This document shows, piece by piece, positions 7,149 through 62,819 of a stretch of 64,000 nt of DNA. The notes under the pieces are model-generated. The model was not told the origin of the DNA and ran no database searches. It saw only the letters and a program-made list of their open reading frames with translations. Source of the stretch: Prosthecobacter sp. (GTDB taxonomy: Bacteria; Verrucomicrobiota; Verrucomicrobiia; Verrucomicrobiales; Verrucomicrobiaceae); assembly GCF_014879935.1 (NCBI RefSeq), contig NZ_JACSRD010000123.1, positions 124,001-188,000 on the forward strand, read 5' to 3'. A program made the translations under genes and the position numbers. Position 1 is the first letter of the stretch, and each line of letters begins with the position of its first letter.

Positions 7149-10100
7149 ATGAGCGTGTTTCGTAACGATCCGACAAGGCCGCGCCGCTGGCTCACTTGGC
7201 TAAAACGACTGCTGCTGGCCGGCTTCGCACTCCTGCTGCTGGCCGTGGTCTTCCATGCGCCGCTGCTACGCTGGGTGATCGGCTATGGCGGCATCAAAGG
7301 TGCGGAACTGGCGGGCATCACACTGAAATGGCGTGTGGACGGCTCCGTGCTGGGCGATTTGAAGCTCAGCGGCATTGATGCCAGCGGCTCGCTGCTGGAG
7401 AAGGCCAGCATCGGCGAGATCGGCGCGGAATACGACGCGTGGACGCTCGCCCGCACCGGCGACATCGACATCGTCAAACGCATCACGCTGAAGAACGTCG
7501 ATGCCGTGGTGGACCTGCGGAAGCTGCCGCCAGCGACAACACCTGCGCCTGAGCCGCCGAAGAAGTCATCGAACGCTCCACCACCGCTCGTGTGGCCGAA
7601 AGTCATCGACATCGAGAACGTGAACGCGGTCATCACGCTGGCGCATGGCGGCCGGATCATCGTGCGCGGGCTCACGCTGCGTGTCGGCGAGGGCATGCCG
7701 GGCGTCTTTGAGCTGGCTGAGTTCAAAATGGAGCCGGGCGATGTTCGAGTCGCCGATGTGAAGGCCCAGGTGCAGTGGGGCGAGCGCACGCTGACCATCG
7801 CAGGCCTCGACCTGCCTTACGGAACACGATTGAAGGCGCTGGCGGTCGATCTGACAAAGTTTCCGGAGGATGCGGTGAAGCTCGGGGTCGAACTGGCTTT
7901 GGGAAAAGCCTCAGTCCGAGTGGATGCGGACGCCAGCGGCCTGTTTGCGCCACCCTTGAAAGCCAAGGCGGATGTGAAGCTGGAAAAGCTCAGCAGCGCC
8001 GATCTGGCAGCCTTCAAGCTGCCTGCTGATGTCAGTTTTGACGATGCGAACATCGAATTGCACGCCGAAGGCCTGGATCACCTGACTGTGACCGGAGACG
8101 TCAAGGCTTCCAACGTCCGTGCCGCTGGTGCGGTGCTTGATTCGGTGCACTTGCCGTTGCGAGTCGAGAACGGCCGGGCGCAGATCGACGCGCTGAAGAT
8201 CGTGCGCGGCACCAACACGGTGCAGGTGACGGCGGAAGCCACTTTGCCGCAGGATCTGGCGCAGTGGCAGAAGATTGCGTGGAAGACGCATGCGGACGTG
8301 GCGGTTCGTGATGTGACGCAGCTTCTGACAAAGCCGCCGCCCGCGAAGGGTGCTGTGCTGGTTTCACTCGACGCGCAGGGACTCGGCGGGACGCCAACAC
8401 AGGTGAAAGGCCACGTTGGTGGCGAGAAGCTCGTCTTCGAGGCCTACAAGCTGCCGAAAGTCGATGTGGACTTCGCCCTGGATGGCAAGGAAGCCACCGT
8501 GCGACTGCCGGCACTCGCTTTGGGCGACGGCAACACGATCACACTCGATGCGTCGATGAAAATGGAGGACGCGATGCCGGTGAAGGCCGCGTGGAAGGTG
8601 CAGATCGATGATCCGGTGCGGCTCATGCAAACGGTCGGACTTCCGCCGCTCGACCAACCGGTCACCGCGAAGATTGCCACGACTGGCAAAACGGCTTTCC
8701 TCGCGAACGACGTGATGAATCTCGATGCGGAGGTCGATTTGAACGTCACCGACGGCAAGTGGGGCGATGCGGCGCTGCCTGCGGTGGCCGTGAAGGCCAC
8801 CGTGGCCAAGGGCGAGGCTCATCTGAACCCCTGCCGCATCGTCGTGGATGATCGCAACCGCATCGAGATCACGGCTGAGGCCAAGCTGGCCGCGCCGTGG
8901 AGCTTTGTCGCGAATGGAGACATCGCACTGCCACAGCTCACGAGCCTGAACGCCTTGCTCGCCGCGTTGAAAGCGCCGTCGATCGAATCGGGAAGCGTCG
9001 CGATGAAGCTGGACGTGAAGGGCGACGCGAGTCCGTGGCGTGGCGAAGGCCGCGTGGAGTTGAAAGCGAATGAGGTGAAGACCGCCAGCATGCCGGAGGC
9101 GGCGGATGTTGATCTGAAGACCACTTTTGACGGCACGACCGCGCAGATCGAGACGCTGCGGGCTGTGCTGGGGCCGTGGAAGCTCATCACCGCCGGTAAA
9201 GTCACCGACAAGGACGCGCAGCTCACCGAATTGAGCCTGTGGCAGAAGGACCGGCAGTTGATGACCGGACATGCGCATGCGCCTTTCGATTTGATGCAGA
9301 CCGACGTGCCTGACGGCAGCCAGCTGGATGTCGTCTTGAGTGCGAAGGACCTCCCGGTGCATGAGATTGCCGCCGCGGCGGGCGTGACGGATGTGCCGCC
9401 GGGCATTCTGAACGCGGAGGTGAAGATCGGCGGCAGGCTCGATTCCGCCGACCTTTGGGTGAAGCTCGGTGTGAGCGAGCTGAAGGCTCCCGGAGTTCCT
9501 GCATCGTTCAAACCGGCCGCAGTGGATGTTTCGACGGCGTTGAAGGCGAACCGGCTCACCTTTGATGCGAAGCTGGTGCAGGAGCCGCTGCAGCCGCTGA
9601 CGCTGACAGCCGAGCTGCCGGTGAAATTGCCCGATCTGATGAAGAATCCCGATCTGGCGATGAATCTGCCGGTCAAAGCCACGCTGGACCTGCCGGAGAG
9701 CGATCTGGGCTTTGTGCGAGAGTTTGCGCCGGATGTGGTGAAATCCCTGCCCGCGAAGCTGCGGCTGCATGCGACCGTTGGTGGCACGGTGAAGGAGCCT
9801 CTGATCGATTCCTCGCTGGATCTGAACGCGCCGGAAGTCGGGCTCATGAGCGCAGACATGCCCAGCGTGCGTGATGTGCGCGTGAAAGTGCGCACGCATG
9901 ACCGCAAGGCGACGATCGAGGACATCTCGGCCGTTCTTGCCGGCGGCAAAGTGCGGCTCGCCGGTGTGATCGACGCAGCGAGTCCGCAAGATCCGAAGTT
10001 TGATCTCAAAGTGGAGGCCCGCGAGGCGCTGGTGATGCGCAATCCGACCTCCAGTGTGCGAGCAAATGCGGACATCACCTGCGCGGGAACCCAGAAGGCG

Positions 10101-10955
10101 GCTCGTGTGAGCGGAACGGTCGAAGCCGTGCGCGGACGCATCTTCCAGGAGGTGAATCTGCTGCCAAACGTGACCGGCATGATCCAGCAAGGCGAAAAAC
10201 TCCCGCCGCCACCGCCTTCCACCTCAAAGGTGGATCAGAAACTGGCGCTGCCGCCAATGCTGAAGGACTGGAGCTTCGATTTGAAGGTGAAGACGCGCGA
10301 TCCGGTGGTGATTGCTGGCAATCTGGTGAACGGCGCCGTGTCCGCCGACATCGCTCTCGGTGGAACGGGTGCCGCACCCCGGCTGACGGGTTTCGCAAAC
10401 GTGGATCGCATGGTGCTGAAGCTGCCGTTCAGCCTGTTGAAGATCACCAAGGGCGTCGTGACGATGAATCCGGACAATCCCTTCACGCCAAAGCTGGATG
10501 TGAGGGGTGAGTCGCGTGTGGGCAGCAACGACATCACTCTTTACGTTTACGGCGACGCATCGAATCCGAAGACGCGCTTCACCAGCACTCCACCGCTGTC
10601 GGAGGCGGACATCGTGACGCTGCTCGGCACGGGCATGACCCTGGGTGGCGACAATGCCCAGATGGCCAGCGAGGCGATGACACGCGCGGCCTTCCTCGTG
10701 ATCAGCGAGACCTACCGCAAGATCTTCAACAAGAAGAAGACCGTCAGCGACGAGCCGCCGAAGCTGCACACGACCTTCAATCCCTCCGGCTCCGACCGTG
10801 CCAATGACAGCATGCAGGCGATGTACGAGATCACGCCGAAGGTGCGGTTCATCGGCCGATTCACGCAAACAGGCCGCATGAAGGCGCTGCTGGGCTATGT
10901 GCTGCGCTTCGGCCAGGCGGCGAGGGCGATGGATGATGATGCCAATGACGAATGA
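7149..10955 (+). CDS. tamB: Translocation and assembly module TamB (DUF490)
   Basis: 1268 residues. One N-terminal membrane anchor (LKRLLLAGFALLLLAVVFHAPLL) is followed by a very long beta-rich region and the conserved C-terminal DUF490 segment (PPLSEADIVTLLGTGM, then an LLGYVLRFG-type end). TamB proteins span the periplasm and work with an Omp85 partner in outer-membrane protein assembly or lipid transport. The partner gene follows at once. The last residues (ANDE and the stop codon) are encoded by the TGACGAATG repeat, so the C-terminal tail has been rewritten by that repeat. A proline-rich patch near 130-145 (PATTPAPEPPKK) is a likely flexible spacer. Confidence 0.92.
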   Translation: MSVFRNDPTRPRRWLTWLKRLLLAGFALLLLAVVFHAPLLRWVIGYGGIKGAELAGITLKWRVDGSVLGDLKLSGIDASGSLLEKASIGEIGAEYDAWTLARTGDIDIVKRITLKNVDAVVDLRKLPPATTPAPEPPKKSSNAPPPLVWPKVIDIENVNAVITLAHGGRIIVRGLTLRVGEGMPGVFELAEFKMEPGDVRVADVKAQVQWGERTLTIAGLDLPYGTRLKALAVDLTKFPEDAVKLGVELALGKASVRVDADASGLFAPPLKAKADVKLEKLSSADLAAFKLPADVSFDDANIELHAEGLDHLTVTGDVKASNVRAAGAVLDSVHLPLRVENGRAQIDALKIVRGTNTVQVTAEATLPQDLAQWQKIAWKTHADVAVRDVTQLLTKPPPAKGAVLVSLDAQGLGGTPTQVKGHVGGEKLVFEAYKLPKVDVDFALDGKEATVRLPALALGDGNTITLDASMKMEDAMPVKAAWKVQIDDPVRLMQTVGLPPLDQPVTAKIATTGKTAFLANDVMNLDAEVDLNVTDGKWGDAALPAVAVKATVAKGEAHLNPCRIVVDDRNRIEITAEAKLAAPWSFVANGDIALPQLTSLNALLAALKAPSIESGSVAMKLDVKGDASPWRGEGRVELKANEVKTASMPEAADVDLKTTFDGTTAQIETLRAVLGPWKLITAGKVTDKDAQLTELSLWQKDRQLMTGHAHAPFDLMQTDVPDGSQLDVVLSAKDLPVHEIAAAAGVTDVPPGILNAEVKIGGRLDSADLWVKLGVSELKAPGVPASFKPAAVDVSTALKANRLTFDAKLVQEPLQPLTLTAELPVKLPDLMKNPDLAMNLPVKATLDLPESDLGFVREFAPDVVKSLPAKLRLHATVGGTVKEPLIDSSLDLNAPEVGLMSADMPSVRDVRVKVRTHDRKATIEDISAVLAGGKVRLAGVIDAASPQDPKFDLKVEAREALVMRNPTSSVRANADITCAGTQKAARVSGTVEAVRGRIFQEVNLLPNVTGMIQQGEKLPPPPPSTSKVDQKLALPPMLKDWSFDLKVKTRDPVVIAGNLVNGAVSADIALGGTGAAPRLTGFANVDRMVLKLPFSLLKITKGVVTMNPDNPFTPKLDVRGESRVGSNDITLYVYGDASNPKTRFTSTPPLSEADIVTLLGTGMTLGGDNAQMASEAMTRAAFLVISETYRKIFNKKKTVSDEPPKLHTTFNPSGSDRANDSMQAMYEITPKVRFIGRFTQTGRMKALLGYVLRFGQAARAMDDDANDE

Positions 10956-10991
10956 CGAATGACGAATGACGAATGCAGAATGACGAATGCC
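10944..10991 (+). repeat. TGACGAATG-type repeat at tamB/tamA junction
   Basis: Tandem 7-base units (AATGACG) followed by GAATGCAGAATGACGAATGCC. It supplies the tamB stop codon and the candidate tamA ATG codons. The stretch from 10959 matches the copy at 40321 in 32 of 33 positions. Confidence 0.9.
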
Positions 10992-13031
10992 AGCCGGTTG
11001 CGCCGCAACTGGGCGGCGCTGCTGTGCTCCTTGGTGATGGCGGGTGCTTTGGAAGCGCATGAGGTGAGCTTCGGCCAGACGACCGTGCGCGTGGACGGAG
11101 TCGAGGAGTCGCAGTGGGACGACCTGAAGACGATGCTGATGGACCAGCTGACGTTGAATGGCAGCGGCCCTGCCGGTGAGCCACTGGCTGACGATCTGGC
11201 CTTCTTCACGCGGCAGCAGTTCATTCGCGAAGGCTGGCCGGAGGCCGAGGTGATGTGGAAGATGGAGCCCGGTGGCCTGCGGCTGACCGTGAAGCCTGGA
11301 AAGCCTGTGCGAGTGGGCACGGTGACCTTGAAAGGTGAGACGCCGCTGCCAGACGAAGAACTGAAGAAGTACCTGCTGAAGCCGACGCTGGAACGCGAGC
11401 ATGTGGACAAAAAGCTGCCACAATGGGTGGAGGCGGACATCCAGCAGGGCACCAGCCTCGTGCAGCGCCGTCTGCGTGCCGAAGGTTATCTGAATGCGGA
11501 GACGCTGCTGCTGCCAGCACCGTCCACCGGGCCTGACATGCGACGTGATCTGACACTGGAGATCAAAGCAGGGCCAAAGTTTGTCTTCGGCCACACCGTG
11601 ATCACCGGAGCGCCGCCCGAGCTCGACAAGCAGATGCAGGCCCAGATGACCGAGGCGCAAGGAACGCCTTTCAACGAAGCGCGTGTCCAGCAGATCGAGC
11701 AGCGGCTGGAGGCGATCTGTGCGGAACGCGGCTGGCTTTATGCGAAAACGCTGGCGGACTACACGCTCGGCAAGGCAGGCGGGACGGTGGACGTGACTTT
11801 CCGCGTGCAGCCGGGCGAACGTGTGCGCATCGCCAGCGTGACGCCGCATCCGCAGTTCAGCCGGGGCGCCCGGCGGGTGTTGATGGCGAAGTTCAAACCG
11901 CTGACCGGACGGATCTACGACGCGGACGAGGTGGACTTCCTCTTCAAGCGGGCGCTGGACACCGGCATGTTCGCCTTGCTGGACACACGGGTGCTTTCAC
12001 CTCAAGGCGACGCCGCGACCGGTGATCTGCGAGTCACCGGCGAGGAGACGAAACCCGTCACGCTCGGCTTTGAGCTGGGTTTTGACACCTTCCTCGGCGG
12101 ACAAGTGGGCGTGACCTACAAGAACACGAACTGGCGTGACACAGGCAACACGCTGGCAGCGGAGCTGACCTACAGCGTCGCGGGGCCCGTTGGGTTTGTG
12201 AGCGTGACAAATCCTGCGGTCTTCAATTCCCAGCACTCCGCCACGCTGCGTCTCGCGCTGGAGCAGTTCAATCGGTTCGAATACGACCGCATCGGCACGG
12301 CCTTGGGCCTGGATGTGGCACGCCGCGTGGACCAGGCGCTGAGCTACTCGGTTTTCATCGGCACCTCGGCCAACACGGTGAGCTCGAAGATCCTGAACGA
12401 CACACAGACCGGGCCGAGGAACTACTCGCTCATGAGCCTCGGGGCGAATGTGACCCTGGATCGTCGCGACAGCCCCGTCCTGCCGAAGAAAGGCTGGTAT
12501 CTCTCCGGCCGCATCGAAAGCTCCACGGACATCCTCGGCTCCGGCGTGAGCTTCCTGCGAACCGATCTGCGCGGCGCGTGGTATCGGCCGATCACGAAGA
12601 AGTGGCGATTCGCCGCGGGGGGCGAACTGGCGACGATCCAGGGCGCGGCCGCCGAGAAGATCCCCATCGACAGCCGTGTGTTCAACGGCGGCCCGAACAG
12701 CGTGCGTTCCTTCGGCCAGCGCGAGCTCGGACCAGTCACTCCGGGCGGGACACCGCTCGGCGGCACTTCAGCGCTGTTCGCCAGCGCCGAGTTTTCTTAT
12801 GAGATCATGCCGAATTTCGAGATCGCGTTCTTTGGCGACATCGGAAGTCTTTCACGCGCCAACAACTCATCGCCACTGTCCTACTCCTCCGACTTCCGGC
12901 AGGCGATCGGCGCAGGGCTGCGCTACCACCTGCCGTTCGGGCCGATCCGCATCGACTACGGTCACAACCCAAGCCGCCGCACTGGCGAAAGCAGCGGCTT
13001 TCTGCATGTGACCGTCGGATTCGCGTTCTGA
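10959..13031 (+). CDS. tamA: Omp85/TamA-like outer-membrane assembly protein
   Basis: 690 residues from the ATG at 10959; the ATG at 10980 (MTNASRLRRNWAALLCSLVMAGALEA) is an equally good signal-peptide start, and both sit in the TGACGAATG repeat. POTRA-like repeats (GTVTLKGETPLPDEELKKYLL; FGHTVITGAPPELDKQMQAQ; VRIASVTPHPQFSRGARRVLM) occupy about 20-360, followed by a C-terminal Omp85/D15 barrel with VRSFGQRELGP and a terminal Phe (VTVGFAF) typical of beta-barrel signals. Its position three bases behind tamB supports TamA rather than BamA. Location: outer membrane. Confidence 0.9.
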   Translation: MTNDECRMTNASRLRRNWAALLCSLVMAGALEAHEVSFGQTTVRVDGVEESQWDDLKTMLMDQLTLNGSGPAGEPLADDLAFFTRQQFIREGWPEAEVMWKMEPGGLRLTVKPGKPVRVGTVTLKGETPLPDEELKKYLLKPTLEREHVDKKLPQWVEADIQQGTSLVQRRLRAEGYLNAETLLLPAPSTGPDMRRDLTLEIKAGPKFVFGHTVITGAPPELDKQMQAQMTEAQGTPFNEARVQQIEQRLEAICAERGWLYAKTLADYTLGKAGGTVDVTFRVQPGERVRIASVTPHPQFSRGARRVLMAKFKPLTGRIYDADEVDFLFKRALDTGMFALLDTRVLSPQGDAATGDLRVTGEETKPVTLGFELGFDTFLGGQVGVTYKNTNWRDTGNTLAAELTYSVAGPVGFVSVTNPAVFNSQHSATLRLALEQFNRFEYDRIGTALGLDVARRVDQALSYSVFIGTSANTVSSKILNDTQTGPRNYSLMSLGANVTLDRRDSPVLPKKGWYLSGRIESSTDILGSGVSFLRTDLRGAWYRPITKKWRFAAGGELATIQGAAAEKIPIDSRVFNGGPNSVRSFGQRELGPVTPGGTPLGGTSALFASAEFSYEIMPNFEIAFFGDIGSLSRANNSSPLSYSSDFRQAIGAGLRYHLPFGPIRIDYGHNPSRRTGESSGFLHVTVGFAF

Positions 13032-36074: not shown

Positions 36075-36784
36075 TTTTGCGTGCCGTCATTCTCTTCGCA
36101 CTCTGCGGCATGACCATGCTGCTCTGCCAGTTCTCACCCCAGCCAAGGGGTGGCGACGACATCGGCATCGTGGCGGACCTGCCGATGGTGGCGGGCAGTT
36201 TCGTGGGTGAATCCGAACCGCCCAGTGAGAAGGAGCGCGCGCTGCTGCCAGCCGACACGATCATCGTGAAGCGGGAGTATCGCACGCCCGGTCGTGCGCT
36301 CGAAAACCGCGATCTGGCGCATGCATCACTCGTCATTGCCGGCAATGACAGCCGCAGCATCCATCGCCCCGAAGTCTGTCTCGACGGCCAGGGCTGGACG
36401 ATCACCGATTCGCGGGTGCATGAGGTGAAACTGCTCTCCGGCGAGGTTTTGCGTGTGCGTGACCTCGCCATCGGACGCGAGGTGCTGCTGTCCGACGGCT
36501 CCAAGCTGCCGTTGCGGGCGCACTACGTTTACTGGTTCGTCGGCGCGGATGTCAGCACGCCGAGCAACCTGGAACGTCAGCTCATCAGTTTCCGTGACAG
36601 CGTCCTGCGGAATGTGAACCATCGCTGGGCTTATCCCTCGGTGATGGCACGCGTGACGGACAATCTCACGCTGCAGCAGAGCGGTGAACGTCGTCGTGAT
36701 GACGAGGAAACGGTGAAGATGCTCCTTTCACTGATCCGCAGCCTTGCGCCGCGATTGCAGAAGGATTTGGTGCCGCATTCATGA
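36071..36784 (+). CDS. Exosortase-associated EpsI family protein
   Basis: 237 residues from MILRAVILFALCGMTMLLCQF, one N-terminal membrane anchor then a periplasmic domain. SIHRPEVCLDGQGWTITDSRVHEV and HYVYWFVGADVSTPSNLERQLISFRDSVLRNVNHRWAYPSV match the EpsI domain, which in other bacteria is either fused to exosortase or encoded next to it. It is required for exosortase-linked EPS export in known systems; its biochemical role is unclear. Separate-gene arrangement here. Confidence 0.92.
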   Translation: MILRAVILFALCGMTMLLCQFSPQPRGGDDIGIVADLPMVAGSFVGESEPPSEKERALLPADTIIVKREYRTPGRALENRDLAHASLVIAGNDSRSIHRPEVCLDGQGWTITDSRVHEVKLLSGEVLRVRDLAIGREVLLSDGSKLPLRAHYVYWFVGADVSTPSNLERQLISFRDSVLRNVNHRWAYPSVMARVTDNLTLQQSGERRRDDEETVKMLLSLIRSLAPRLQKDLVPHS

Positions 36785-37581
36785 TTTCGAAGCTTATCGC
36801 CCATTTGCAGCCGCTCGGTCGCGTCGCGGTCGCCTATTCCGGCGGCGTGGACAGCACGCTGGTTTTAAAGGCCGCCGTGGATGCGCTCGGAGCGGACCAT
36901 GTCGTCGCCCTGCTAGCTGTTTCGCCCAGTTTGCCGCAAAGCGAGAAGGACGAGGCTGTTTCGCTCGCCAAACAGCTCGGCGCGCGACTGGAACTGCTGC
37001 CAACGAAGGAAACGAACGATCCGCAGTATCAGGCGAACGCGCCCAACCGCTGTTACTTCTGCAAGGACCACGTCTATCGCGCTCTGCGGCAGTTTGCGGA
37101 GCAAAACGGCATCATGCATGTGCTGGATGGCATGAACGCCGAGGACACGCTCGATGTCCGTCCGGGCCGGGCGGCGGCGCGTGAGCTGAAGATCCTCAGC
37201 CCGCTGCATGATCTCGGTTTCAGCAAGAAGGATGTGCGTGAGGCGGCGAAAGCAGTCGGTTTACCGAACTGGGACAAACCCGCTGCCGCCTGTCTCGCCT
37301 CCCGCGTGCCGTATGGCACGAGCGTGACGCCGAAACTGCTGTCGCAGATCGAGCGTGCGGAGGCCGCGCTGTTTGATCTGGGCTTCCGTGAGCTGCGCGT
37401 CCGGCATCATGGCGATGTCGCCAGGCTGGAGGTGCCCGAAGCCGACCTGGTGCAGGCCTTGCAGCAACGAAACGAGATCACGGCAGCCTTGCGGGCCGTG
37501 GGATACACCTACATCACGCTCGATCTCGCCGGATTCCGCTCCGGCAGCATGAACGAAGTGCTCAAAGCCCGCGCCGCATGA
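36781..37581 (+). CDS. larE: LarE, ATP-dependent sulfur transferase for nickel-pincer cofactor
   Basis: 266 residues. PP-loop motif VAVAYSGGVDSTLVLKAAV for ATP pyrophosphatase activity, then NRCYFCKDHVYRALRQFA, GMNAEDTLDVRPGRAA and KPAAACLASRVPYG. LarE adds sulfur to the pyridinium precursor of the nickel-pincer nucleotide used by lactate racemase (LarA) and relatives. Here a CxxC-type pair plus a third Cys is visible, the three-cysteine pattern associated with iron-sulfur-dependent rather than sacrificial LarE. Overlaps EpsI and larB genes by ATGA. Confidence 0.9.
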   Translation: MISKLIAHLQPLGRVAVAYSGGVDSTLVLKAAVDALGADHVVALLAVSPSLPQSEKDEAVSLAKQLGARLELLPTKETNDPQYQANAPNRCYFCKDHVYRALRQFAEQNGIMHVLDGMNAEDTLDVRPGRAAARELKILSPLHDLGFSKKDVREAAKAVGLPNWDKPAAACLASRVPYGTSVTPKLLSQIERAEAALFDLGFRELRVRHHGDVARLEVPEADLVQALQQRNEITAALRAVGYTYITLDLAGFRSGSMNEVLKARAA

Positions 37582-38363
37582 ACGAATCGAAGCTTCGCGA
37601 ACTCCTCGCCCAGGTCAGCGCCGGACAGCTTCCCGCCGAGCAGGCGTTGGAACGTCTGCGCACGTTGCCGTTCGTGGAGGCAGGTCAGGTGCTGGCGGAC
37701 ACGCACCGCGCCATCCGCCAGGGCTTTCCCGAGACGGTGTTTGCGGAGGGCAAGACGCTCACGCAGACCACCGATGCGCTCACCTTGCTGGTCGGTGCAC
37801 ACGGTTGCGCGCTCGCGACGCGGGTGAGCATCGAAATGGCATCGCTGCTGTTGCAGCGCTTTCCGACAGGCAGCTACGACGGCGTTTCACGGCTGTATCG
37901 GATCGGGCAGATGGATCGCTCGTTTCAGGCGGCACCGGTGACCGTCGTCAGTGCCGGAACGTCCGATCTGCCGGTCGCGGAGGAGGCGGCGCAGACCTTG
38001 GAATTCGCCGGAGCCCGCGTGAACCGCATCAACGACGTCGGCGTGGCTGGATTGCACCGCGTTCTTGCCCGCATTGATGAACTGCGGGCGGCGAGCGTGG
38101 TGATCGTCGTCGCAGGCATGGAAGGGGCCCTGCCCAGCGTGGTCGGCGGTTTGGTGGCAGCCCCGGTGATCGCCGTGCCGACCAGCGTCGGCTACGGAGC
38201 CAACCTGCACGGCATCGCGGCGCTTTTGGGCATGCTGAACTCCTGTGCCAGCGGCCTGACCGTGGTAAACATCGACAACGGCTTCGGCGCGGCCATGGCA
38301 GCGTTGAGAATTTTGGGAACGGAGCAGCCCCGGCAGGCGCTGACGGCGAACGGAGGGCATTGA
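37578..38363 (+). CDS. larB: LarB, nickel-pincer cofactor biosynthesis carboxylase/hydrolase
   Basis: 261 residues. An N-terminal helical region (MNESKLRELLAQVSAGQLPAEQALERLR) precedes a PurE-like domain with VVSAGTSDLPVAEEAAQTLEFAGARVNRINDVGVAGLHRV, GMEGALPSVVGGLVAAPVIAVPTSVGYGANLHGIAALLGMLNSCASGLTVVNIDNGFGAAMAAL. These are LarB signatures. LarB carboxylates and hydrolyses nicotinic acid adenine dinucleotide to make the LarE substrate. No larC (nickel insertion) or larA is in the window. Last gene of the tightly coupled run. Confidence 0.92.
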   Translation: MNESKLRELLAQVSAGQLPAEQALERLRTLPFVEAGQVLADTHRAIRQGFPETVFAEGKTLTQTTDALTLLVGAHGCALATRVSIEMASLLLQRFPTGSYDGVSRLYRIGQMDRSFQAAPVTVVSAGTSDLPVAEEAAQTLEFAGARVNRINDVGVAGLHRVLARIDELRAASVVIVVAGMEGALPSVVGGLVAAPVIAVPTSVGYGANLHGIAALLGMLNSCASGLTVVNIDNGFGAAMAALRILGTEQPRQALTANGGH

Positions 38364-39288: not shown

Positions 39289-40680
39289 ATGTCTCTCGAA
39301 GACACCCTTTATCCGCTGCTGAAACTCTACGAGGCAGCGCCGCAACCGGTCAAATCGGTCGTGGGACGAGTTTACCGGACCATTCCGGCCACACTGCGGC
39401 ATGGCAGGGCCTATGAGCGGTTCCGTCAGGAAGCCCAGGCGGTGGAAGCGTGGGATGAGGACAGAATCCGTCGTTACCAGATCCATGCGCTGCGTGAATC
39501 GCTCCTCGCAGCGGCAAAAGCACCGTTTTACGCGGAGCGTTTTGCTGAACGCGGCCTGGATCCCGCCAGCTTTGAGTGCCTGGAGCAACTGGCAGATTAT
39601 CCGCTGCTCACCAAGCAGGACCTGCTGCAGCATCGTGAGCAGATGGTGAATCCCGAGTTTGATGCGAGGCATCGGCTTTACATCACCACGGGCGGTTCGA
39701 GCGGTGTGCCGGTTGGCTTTTATCTGCACAAAGGCGTGAGCCGTCCAAAGGAGCAGGCCTATCTGGAGGCGCAGTGGTCACGACGTGGCTACCAGCCCGG
39801 TGATCGCGTGGCCGTGATCCGCGGCGGCGTCACCTCCAGCCGCGCGGCCGGCCGCATCAGTTACTACGACGCCACACGGAACTGGCTCATCCTGTCCTCG
39901 TATCACCTCACACCGGAACGACTGCCGGAGTATGTGGCCGCGCTGAATCGTTTTCGGCCGCAACATCTCCATGCCTACCCCAGCGCGGCGCTCATGCTTG
40001 CGCGTGCAATGGAGCAGACCGGCACGAAGCTCGATTTCCCGATCACTTCCATGCTCTGCGGTTCGGAAAAGCTCACGGCGGAGTCCCAGCACTTCCTGGA
40101 GCAGTTCTTCCACACCCGCGTGTTTCATTGGTATGGCCACAGCGAGCGTGTCGTGCTCGCCGCACAGAGTCGCAGCTCGAATCAACTGCACTTCTGGCCC
40201 ACCTATGGCTTCGTCGAGTTCGGAGAACCAGATGCCGATGGCAATCGCGAGATCATCGGCACCTCGTTTCACAATCACGTCATGCCGCTGATCCGGTATC
40301 GCACCGGAGATCTGGCAAAAATGACGAATGACGAATGCGGAATGACGAATGCCGTGGTTTCAGAGGTCGTGGGTCGTGATTACGAGTTCCTCATCAGCGC
40401 CACCGGCCGCCGCATCTCTCTCACGGCCATCAACATGCACGATGATCTCTTCGAGGGGCTTTTGGCGGTACAGTTCGTCCAAGAACGCGAAGGTGAGGTC
40501 GAATGCCGCTTTCAAGCCGGTCCTCGATGGCAAAACTCCCGCCAGGAACTCATGCGTGCCGGTTTGCTGGCCAAGCTGGGAGATGATTTTATTCTCACGC
40601 TGCGTGAAGTGGGTGAAGTGGAGAAGACCAGCGCCGGGAAGCACAAGTGGCTGGTGAGCTTTCTGAAACCATCATTTTGA
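39289..40680 (+). CDS. CapK/PaaK-like AMP-forming ligase family protein
   Basis: 463 residues from MSLEDTLYPLLKLYEAAPQPV; the ORF track uses an upstream TTG. Adenylate-forming landmarks: LYITTGGSSGVPVGFYL (phosphate loop), WYGHSERVVLA and MPLIRYRTGDLA. CapK-type relatives of phenylacetate-CoA ligase are common in capsule and EPS loci, where their exact substrate is rarely known. Directly after RTGDLA, residues 345-355 read MTNDECGMTNA, an in-frame copy of the TGACGAATG repeat in a loop where relatives often have a Cys-rich CxCGR segment. It is followed by the oxidoreductase and heparinase-like genes. Confidence 0.85.
   Translation: MSLEDTLYPLLKLYEAAPQPVKSVVGRVYRTIPATLRHGRAYERFRQEAQAVEAWDEDRIRRYQIHALRESLLAAAKAPFYAERFAERGLDPASFECLEQLADYPLLTKQDLLQHREQMVNPEFDARHRLYITTGGSSGVPVGFYLHKGVSRPKEQAYLEAQWSRRGYQPGDRVAVIRGGVTSSRAAGRISYYDATRNWLILSSYHLTPERLPEYVAALNRFRPQHLHAYPSAALMLARAMEQTGTKLDFPITSMLCGSEKLTAESQHFLEQFFHTRVFHWYGHSERVVLAAQSRSSNQLHFWPTYGFVEFGEPDADGNREIIGTSFHNHVMPLIRYRTGDLAKMTNDECGMTNAVVSEVVGRDYEFLISATGRRISLTAINMHDDLFEGLLAVQFVQEREGEVECRFQAGPRWQNSRQELMRAGLLAKLGDDFILTLREVGEVEKTSAGKHKWLVSFLKPSF
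40321..40353 (+). repeat. TGACGAATG-type repeat inside CapK-like gene
   Basis: The 33-base stretch ATGACGAATGACGAATGC(G)GAATGACGAATGCC differs at one base from the copy at 10959 and keeps the host reading frame, encoding MTNDECGMTNA. Confidence 0.9.
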
Positions 40681-61757: not shown

Positions 61758-62819
61758 ATGTTTCGCTTCGCACTGCTTTGGGCTTTTGCCTCGTCATTCA
61801 CCATTCCTCATTCGTCATTGGCGGCAGAGCCGCCCCCGGTTTCCGTCTCAAACATCCGCCGCGTCTTCCACAACGGCGAACAAAATGCCTTCACCGACCT
61901 CGTGCGCTTCAAAGGAGCGCTTTACCTGTGCTTCCGCAGTTGTCCGGACGGTCACATGGTATTCAACACAGCTTCGGTCATCGTTTTGCGCAGCGCGGAT
62001 GAAGGCGTGTCGTGGCAGCCGGTGCATCGCTTCAGCGTGAAGGATCGCGACACGCGTGATCCGCACTTCCTCGTCTTCAAAGAGCGCCTGTTTGTCTATA
62101 CCGGCACGTGGTGGACCGGCCCCGGACTGCTCGACCGCAAGGACTACGACATGAACAAGCAGCTCGGCTACGCCGTGTCCTCCGCGGATGGCACCCAATG
62201 GAGTGAACCGACACTCTTGGAGGGCACCTTCGGCTACTACATCTGGCGAGCTTCCACACACGACGGCAAAGTTTATCTCTGCGGCCGGCGGAAGGCCAGC
62301 TTCGCCGTCGAGGGCATGGGCGAGCGCGGTCACAACCAGTCCATCATGCTCGAAAGCGATGACGGCATCATCTTCCGCCACCGCGCCTATTTTCAGGAGA
62401 GCGGTGGCAATGAAACTGCCTTCTTCTTTGAGAAAGACGGCAGCGTCCTGGCCCTGGATCGCAACGGGAGCGGAAACTCGATGCTGTGCAGTTCCAAACC
62501 GCCCTACATCGACTGGAACCGCCGCCCGCTTGACCGCTTCGTCGGTGGCCCGATGCTGGTGAAATGGGGAGATCACATCCTCGTCGGCGGTCGTCATCAA
62601 ACGAAAGACAAAGGCCCGAAAACCTCCATCGGCTGGCTCAACGACGATAAGTTCCACGAATTCGCCGAACTCCCCAGCGGCGGCGATAACTCCTATCCCG
62701 GCTTCATCGAGCTTTCGCCGACCAAGGGACTCGTCTCCTGGTATTCGAGCCATGAAAAGGACGGCGCAGGCAAAACGATCACGGCGATTTACCTGGCGGA
62801 GTTGAGCATGGCAAAATGA
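61758..62819 (+). CDS. Secreted sialidase-like (BNR-type propeller) protein
   Basis: 353 residues from MFRFALLWAFASSFTIPHSSLAAEPP. The mature part shows sialidase/BNR-like propeller features: ASVIVLRSADEGVSWQPVHRF (Asp-box-like SxDxGxxW), TRDPHFLVFKERLFVYTG, LGYAVSSADGTQWSEPTLL and an ESDDGIIFRHR repeat. It may release or bind a glycan, but the catalytic set of true sialidases is not confirmed. The signal peptide core SSFTIPHSSLA is encoded by an inverted TGACGAATG-type repeat. Confidence 0.8.
   Translation: MFRFALLWAFASSFTIPHSSLAAEPPPVSVSNIRRVFHNGEQNAFTDLVRFKGALYLCFRSCPDGHMVFNTASVIVLRSADEGVSWQPVHRFSVKDRDTRDPHFLVFKERLFVYTGTWWTGPGLLDRKDYDMNKQLGYAVSSADGTQWSEPTLLEGTFGYYIWRASTHDGKVYLCGRRKASFAVEGMGERGHNQSIMLESDDGIIFRHRAYFQESGGNETAFFFEKDGSVLALDRNGSGNSMLCSSKPPYIDWNRRPLDRFVGGPMLVKWGDHILVGGRHQTKDKGPKTSIGWLNDDKFHEFAELPSGGDNSYPGFIELSPTKGLVSWYSSHEKDGAGKTITAIYLAELSMAK
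61791..61821 (-). repeat. Inverted TGACGAATG-type repeat in a signal peptide
   Basis: On the minus strand this reads CCAATGACGAATGAGGAATGGTGAATGACGA, the same repeat family as at 10944 and 40321. On the plus strand it encodes the hydrophobic SSFTIPHSSLA in the signal peptide. Confidence 0.8.

Follow-up and report, generated by a model that had tools for sequence, protein, structure and literature searches.

In-frame copies of a dispersed GAATGAC heptad repeat in a CapK-like ligase and other enzymes of Prosthecobacter sp. and its relatives

Positions 40321-40353 of the window (the whole 64,000-nt stretch of Prosthecobacter sp. DNA analysed here) belong to a family of dispersed 7-bp tandem repeats and are read in frame within the gene of a CapK-like ligase. 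The resulting 21-nt excess is present in three relatives, one of which carries a secondary insertion in it. The CapK copy is a three-unit gain common to several species, and neither a fresh insertion nor a lone tamA-to-CapK event. Our main reading, with a probability of about 0.78, is that it is a heptad-family array of largely neutral effect, tolerated in protein loops and putatively spread by slippage and/or by copying or exchange. The features discussed are collected in Table 1.

Table 1 Genes and heptad arrays discussed; positions are those of the window unless a contig or locus is named.
Feature	Position	Strand	Details
TamB-like gene ending within array	7149..10955	+	PF04357, E 1.6e-27
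Heptad array, 7 units, tamB/tamA junction	10941..10991	+	gives tamB stop TGA (10953-10955) and possible tamA starts 10959, 10980
TamA/BamA-like Omp85 gene starting within array	10980..13031	+	PF01103, PF07244; NCBIfam TIGR03303/NF047950 below cut-off
PaaK/CapK-like AMP-dependent ligase gene, 463 aa	39289..40680	+	PF00501 over cut-off; NCBIfam PaaK-type matches; PDB 4r1l/2y27 by sequence and fold
Heptad array, 5 units, AC AC CG AC CC	40320..40353	+	residues 344-354, MTNDECGMTNA, at hairpin tip
Heptad array	61791..61822	-	read SSFTIPHSSLA in signal peptide of BNR-type secreted protein, likely start ATG 61759
IspG gene (MEP-pathway enzyme)	L029:429-2321 = own genome C59:4826-6715		inverted heptad pair in frame (NDEIRMTNDECDPRFGLPSSFVIRHSS)

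The heptad family and its placement

The consensus unit of the repeat is GAATGAC, with GAA almost invariant and the last two bases variable; the family pattern is GAATGNN, mostly GAATGAC. In the strain's own genome (7.7 Mb, 286 contigs) AATGNCGAATGNCGAATG gave 206 matches (116 + 90) and the reversed control none. A 17-mer heptad probe, some two and a half units long, matched the window nine times at ≤3 mismatches, against 0.11 expected. With its 7-bp tandem unit and many arrays per genome, above chance, the family is a bacterial heptanucleotide SSR. The pattern AATGNNG, with two free positions, was present in 31 of the 35 same-genus genomes (0 to about 300 matches each), and a stricter pattern was positive in 16 of 141 genomes of the class.

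The census comprised 80 arrays, those listed on contigs up to C211 and in the window, with the gene context taken from our own crude calls by a simple codon-usage gene caller. The listed arrays had 3 to 10 units, with AC (195), GC (21), TC (18), CA (17), CC (14) and CG (11) as last two bases. In units flanked by two perfect neighbours, GAA was near-invariant and change fell mainly on the last two bases, GAAATCC being a recurrent variant. Heptad arrays formed contig ends on C27, C28, C43, C53, C69, C110, C120, C133, C147, C153, C174 and C211 of the own genome. Because contig ends coincide with arrays, the assembly probably stops at the longest ones, which would then be longer than recorded here.

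Most listed arrays (64/80) were intergenic or at the edge of a gene and 16 lay within genes, in keeping with the non-coding, near-gene-start preference of bacterial heptamer SSRs. Forty preceded a start codon in antisense orientation, and for 26 of these the distance was ≤22 nt. In co-directional gaps, the orientation antisense to the downstream gene prevailed by 32 vs 14 (25 vs 5 for single arrays), and these antisense arrays were mostly within about 20 nt of the downstream start codon. Pairs of arrays in opposite orientation were found at 12 examined loci.

The in-gene arrays were mostly antisense, translated as SSFVIRHSS and often placed in an apparent signal peptide, such as MKHLLLLFSSFAILHSSFAAEP, MRFLLAVLVSSFCILHSSFAAT and the window's MFRFALLWAFASSFTIPHSSLAAEP. 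The window array at 61791-61822 has a similar counterpart, SFVLPHSSLA, in G011 (L177) and is absent in G008, G031 and G004. Together with L106, L107, L109 and L140, it codes for part of apparent signal peptides (SSFAIxHSSFA-A) of secreted proteins, two of them sulfatase-like. A run of pure GAATGAC read in the sense direction meets a TGA once every seven codons whatever the frame; the critical unit of a sense coding array must therefore be non-AC. The stop-making unit was replaced by a variant in sense arrays: CA in tamA, GC in an oxidoreductase, and CG in CapK, where TGC stands instead of the stop.

The array in the CapK-like gene

The CapK-like frame is open from TTG 39253, with ATG 39289 as the likely start. 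Its product has an AMP-binding domain and the PaaK fold, as expected of a PaaK/CapK-type ligase, and shares 70-85% identity with orthologs in the genus. Genes for LarE and LarB, of nickel-pincer cofactor synthesis, lie just upstream of this region, at 36781-38363.

In structure models of moderate confidence (pLDDT 72-75) the array loop is placed between predicted strands 337-345 and 357-361. The distance from RYRTGD to GRDYE was 20 residues in the window, L032 (G014) and L033 (G008), and 13 in 12 orthologs (e.g., LAIITNGEVSEVV, LATVTNDEISEVV); of the other orthologs, some had 19 or 20 unrelated residues and others 21 or 22. Compared with the 12 relatives, the array is a net gain of 21 nt, or three units and seven residues. 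At the hairpin turn the usual sequence among orthologs is (I/V)T(N/D)G(E), encoded by DNA (ATNACGAATGGCGA) that resembles two degenerate units.

The initial annotation, made from the window alone, had named an 11-residue insertion confined to this lineage as what would support its reading. The alignment reduces the insertion to seven residues, added to a ATNACGAATG-like stretch that was already there, and the loop is common to G014 (L032 = L062), G008 (L033) and L061, with a related one, SNDECGMRNGG, in L077. A recent single-lineage insertion was rejected, as the loop is common to three to four relatives. A Cys-rich loop, said to be usual at this place, does occur in true PaaK (CPCGRTH in 4r1l); close orthologs have instead a plain hairpin (e.g., AKITDGEVSEIVGR), and we rejected the loss of such a loop in this lineage. 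Homologs that carry the loop residues in genomes without the repeat, which would have refuted the initial interpretation, were not found: G014 and G008 are both rich in genomic copies.

In L061, which groups in the G008/G014 clade, RYRTGD and GRDYE are 40 residues apart, and the array is split by a 60-nt in-frame insert between GACGA and ATGCGG. The loop peptide is MTNDE-PSEARQTAEGCPEGETQRNQ-CGMTNA, and this long loop is predicted to be disordered (pLDDT below 50). The L061 record (CAMCWM010000033.1) is titled Akkermansia muciniphila; its CapK gene is 92–93% identical to Prosthecobacter-clade genes, and the label looks wrong.

The array at the tamB/tamA junction

The resemblance to the tamA copy, 32 of 33 bases between 40321-40353 and 10959-10991 and the same register in both (MTNDECGMTNA and MTNDECRMTNA), had been described correctly. 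The repeat comparison gave 33/34 (97%) for 40320-40353 vs 10958-10991, 29,362 bp apart. A 32/33 match is ordinary: of the 32 listed arrays with at least five units, 20 match another part of the genome at 32/33 or 33/33. Both copies belong to a large dispersed family and are not a private pair; a special copy relation between them was rejected, equally good matches being common among the longer arrays. Translation of the tamA array depends on the ATG used (10959 or 10980), and the codon-usage caller takes 10980. Orthologous, degenerate tamA arrays were found in G020, G001 and G011 (L155, L156, L158), and are absent from G032, G022 and others.

Other enzymes and the 60-nt element

IspG carried a stretch of 49–50 residues that takes in the two arms of an inverted pair of arrays in the own genome (G000), G031 and G014, compared with 11 residues in 14 relatives. 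G031 and G014 were the only other carriers among the genomes searched, and the carriers are not nearest neighbours. In a molybdopterin oxidoreductase, MTNDEWRMTNE was found in G000 and in the genome of L061 (shared with G189), and relatives had other, variable sequence at the same spot (SKFEVSSFK-like). In RfbB an in-frame array is read as SSFDIRHST, in a loop that is variable among relatives. Insertion in frame into unrelated genes, judged against orthologs, is a feature of Rickettsia palindromic elements and REPs; it was recognized in CapK, IspG and the signal peptides.

The insert of L061 (L061:4059-4118) is a 60-nt element (GCCGAGCGAAGCGAGACAGAC...GTAATCA), in frame inside the CapK heptad array. 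With ≤2 mismatches it was found at 8 places in the own genome, 13 in G008 and 16 in the genome of L061. It was present in all five genomes tested, mostly abutting heptads. This 60-nt GCCGAGCG element resembles REPs in size. Empty and filled (L061) arrays thus occur at the same CapK codon, and an insert also occurs in the MEP-pathway enzyme IspG. The family is an example, spread over many species, of non-coding repeat DNA turned into in-frame protein sequence, in the CapK-like and other enzymes.

Inheritance of the coding arrays

In a CapK tree built without the loop, the array carriers were scattered: the array-less L067 and L072 fell among L033, L061 and L062, and the window gene fell elsewhere. 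A single clade of carriers was not rejected (AU p 0.06). By third-position identity no other 11-codon stretch of the gene is as conserved as the array: its informative third codon positions were 9/9 identical in three species vs 45% elsewhere (about 8e-4), on small numbers. For the IspG array the figure was 14/17 vs 53% (p 0.012), weaker than for CapK and again on small numbers. This conservation of the array DNA suggests short-tract exchange, homogenisation or constraint at the DNA level. A neutral loop passed down vertically since long ago does not fit without one of these three, given that the array DNA has diverged less than the gene around it.

Origin of the coding copies

Under the main reading, arrays lie mainly in intergenic, antisense and near-start positions and would be kept inside genes under three conditions. 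The net length would have to keep the frame; as 7 nt is not a codon multiple, only three-unit steps (21 nt) are tolerated there. There should be no in-frame stop, with the critical unit non-AC, and the position in the protein should be a tolerant one (hairpin tip, linker, signal peptide). In CapK, three units would have been added to the beta-hairpin turn after RYRTGD, with the two-unit-like DNA of the orthologs as a possible seed for expansion. Slippage on this seed, copying from other arrays and homologous exchange between species may each have contributed, and both in-situ expansion and tract exchange are possible for the CapK copy. Pure slippage would copy the seed units, and the CG and CC variants in the array are unlike them. 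The added heptapeptide is most likely a neutral passenger in an enzyme that remains under selection.

A transposition-like process, in which arrays (single, in inverted pairs or with the 60-nt element) jump into genes like Rickettsia palindromic elements, appears unlikely, although it has the most in its favour among the alternatives. The IspG insert contains both arms and the spacer, beyond what slippage can make; the 60-nt element is a clean gain in L061 when set against L033, L062 and the window, where the array is empty; and the opposite-orientation arrays at 12 loci and the patchy distribution over gene trees also fit. Against it, a target duplication was not recognised at the CapK site, where the net excess amounts to exactly three units of this one repeat. 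Nor was a link to a transposase found: Y1 transposase genes are equally common in the heptad-free G033 and G018. Heptads were within 1.5 kb at only 2 of 20 Y1 loci, the other 18 having no flanking copies, and mobilisation by a Y1/RAYT transposase was rejected, the Y1 count being unrelated to heptads. Of the initial claim that a mobile or copied repeat was inserted into a living gene, in-frame repeat DNA, an intact conserved gene and an excess over most orthologs stand; mobility of the CapK copy is only a possibility.

A broader view is that heptad arrays and the nested 60-nt element are a moving source of protein sequence. They would enter repeatedly at the same tolerant sites (the CapK hairpin, the IspG linker, the oxidoreductase and RfbB loops, signal peptides), move from one species to another in short tracts, contribute functional parts (signal-peptide c-regions, for example), and be copied free of a transposase. 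We put this forward tentatively and rather doubt it as a whole.

Still less probable is that the array DNA is conserved for a function in DNA or RNA (a protein binding site, translational control, a hairpin) and that the coding copy is kept for that. The unchanged third codon positions inside the array and the strong placement bias, antisense to the downstream gene and often close to its start codon, would agree with such a role. Selection against the spurious ATG and TGA of the sense orientation accounts for the bias as well, and the CapK copy is mid-gene, oriented relative to its gene opposite to the intergenic majority, in a loop missing from most orthologs. Chance likeness of an ITNGE-type loop to the heptad, suggested by the ACGAATGGCGA-like DNA of array-less orthologs, is hardly credible given five consecutive units, a 21-nt step, array-type CG/CC variants, a nested second dispersed element and the excess of heptad matches in the window.

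Comparison with known repeats

One of the closest parallels comes from Beggiatoaceae, cyanobacteria and Bacteroidetes, in the form of heptamer direct repeats with the unit TAACTGA (MacGregor 2015, PMC4679880). Like GAATGAC, these are 7-bp tandem units with roughly a hundred arrays or more scattered over each genome. Most of the arrays lie a few nt ahead of a start codon; there are stops in all three sense frames, and a minority is translated within ORFs, mainly at protein ends. GAATGAC differs in its unit, its variable positions and its opposite-orientation pairs, and in occurring mid-protein in enzymes, where the in-frame gain is seen by ortholog comparison. We rejected membership of the TAACTGA family, the unit being GAATGAC.

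Heptameric repeats GGGAATC / GGGGA(C/T)T are described from Xanthomonas and Nostoc (PMC4692102). These and the cyanobacterial STRR heptamers share with GAATGAC the dispersal, the inverted copies and the variation in length and sequence between close species. The Xanthomonas and Nostoc heptamers are G-rich G-quadruplex candidates and mainly intergenic, whereas GAATGAC has no G runs.

In-frame repeats within proteins are known from Rickettsia palindromic elements and intragenic GTAG/CGTC REPs, and Opitutus terrae, of the same phylum, is among the richest in intragenic REPs (PMC3733652, PMC10969869). As with GAATGAC, dispersed non-coding repeats are translated in frame in otherwise normal proteins. 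Those elements are palindromes, whereas GAATGAC forms tandem heptads for which no link to a transposase was found; in CapK the units are repeated directly in tandem, and inverted pairing occurs only at some other loci. The GAATGAC family combines the anatomy of the TAACTGA and G-rich heptamers with an in-frame presence in enzymes like that of the palindromic elements and REPs. No description of the family was found in the literature searched for its unit or for such repeats in Verrucomicrobia (with partial journal coverage), and as far as this search extends it is a new heptamer family with unusually clear coding copies. The spread of bacterial heptamer repeats, and the reason for the 7-bp length, become testable questions.

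Other 7-bp-type repeats apparently exist in the genus, as SKFKVSS-type coding stretches and GAAAGCA/GAAATGA arrays (L236-L245, L203, L207). Some of them occupy the protein site where the own genome carries GAATGAC.
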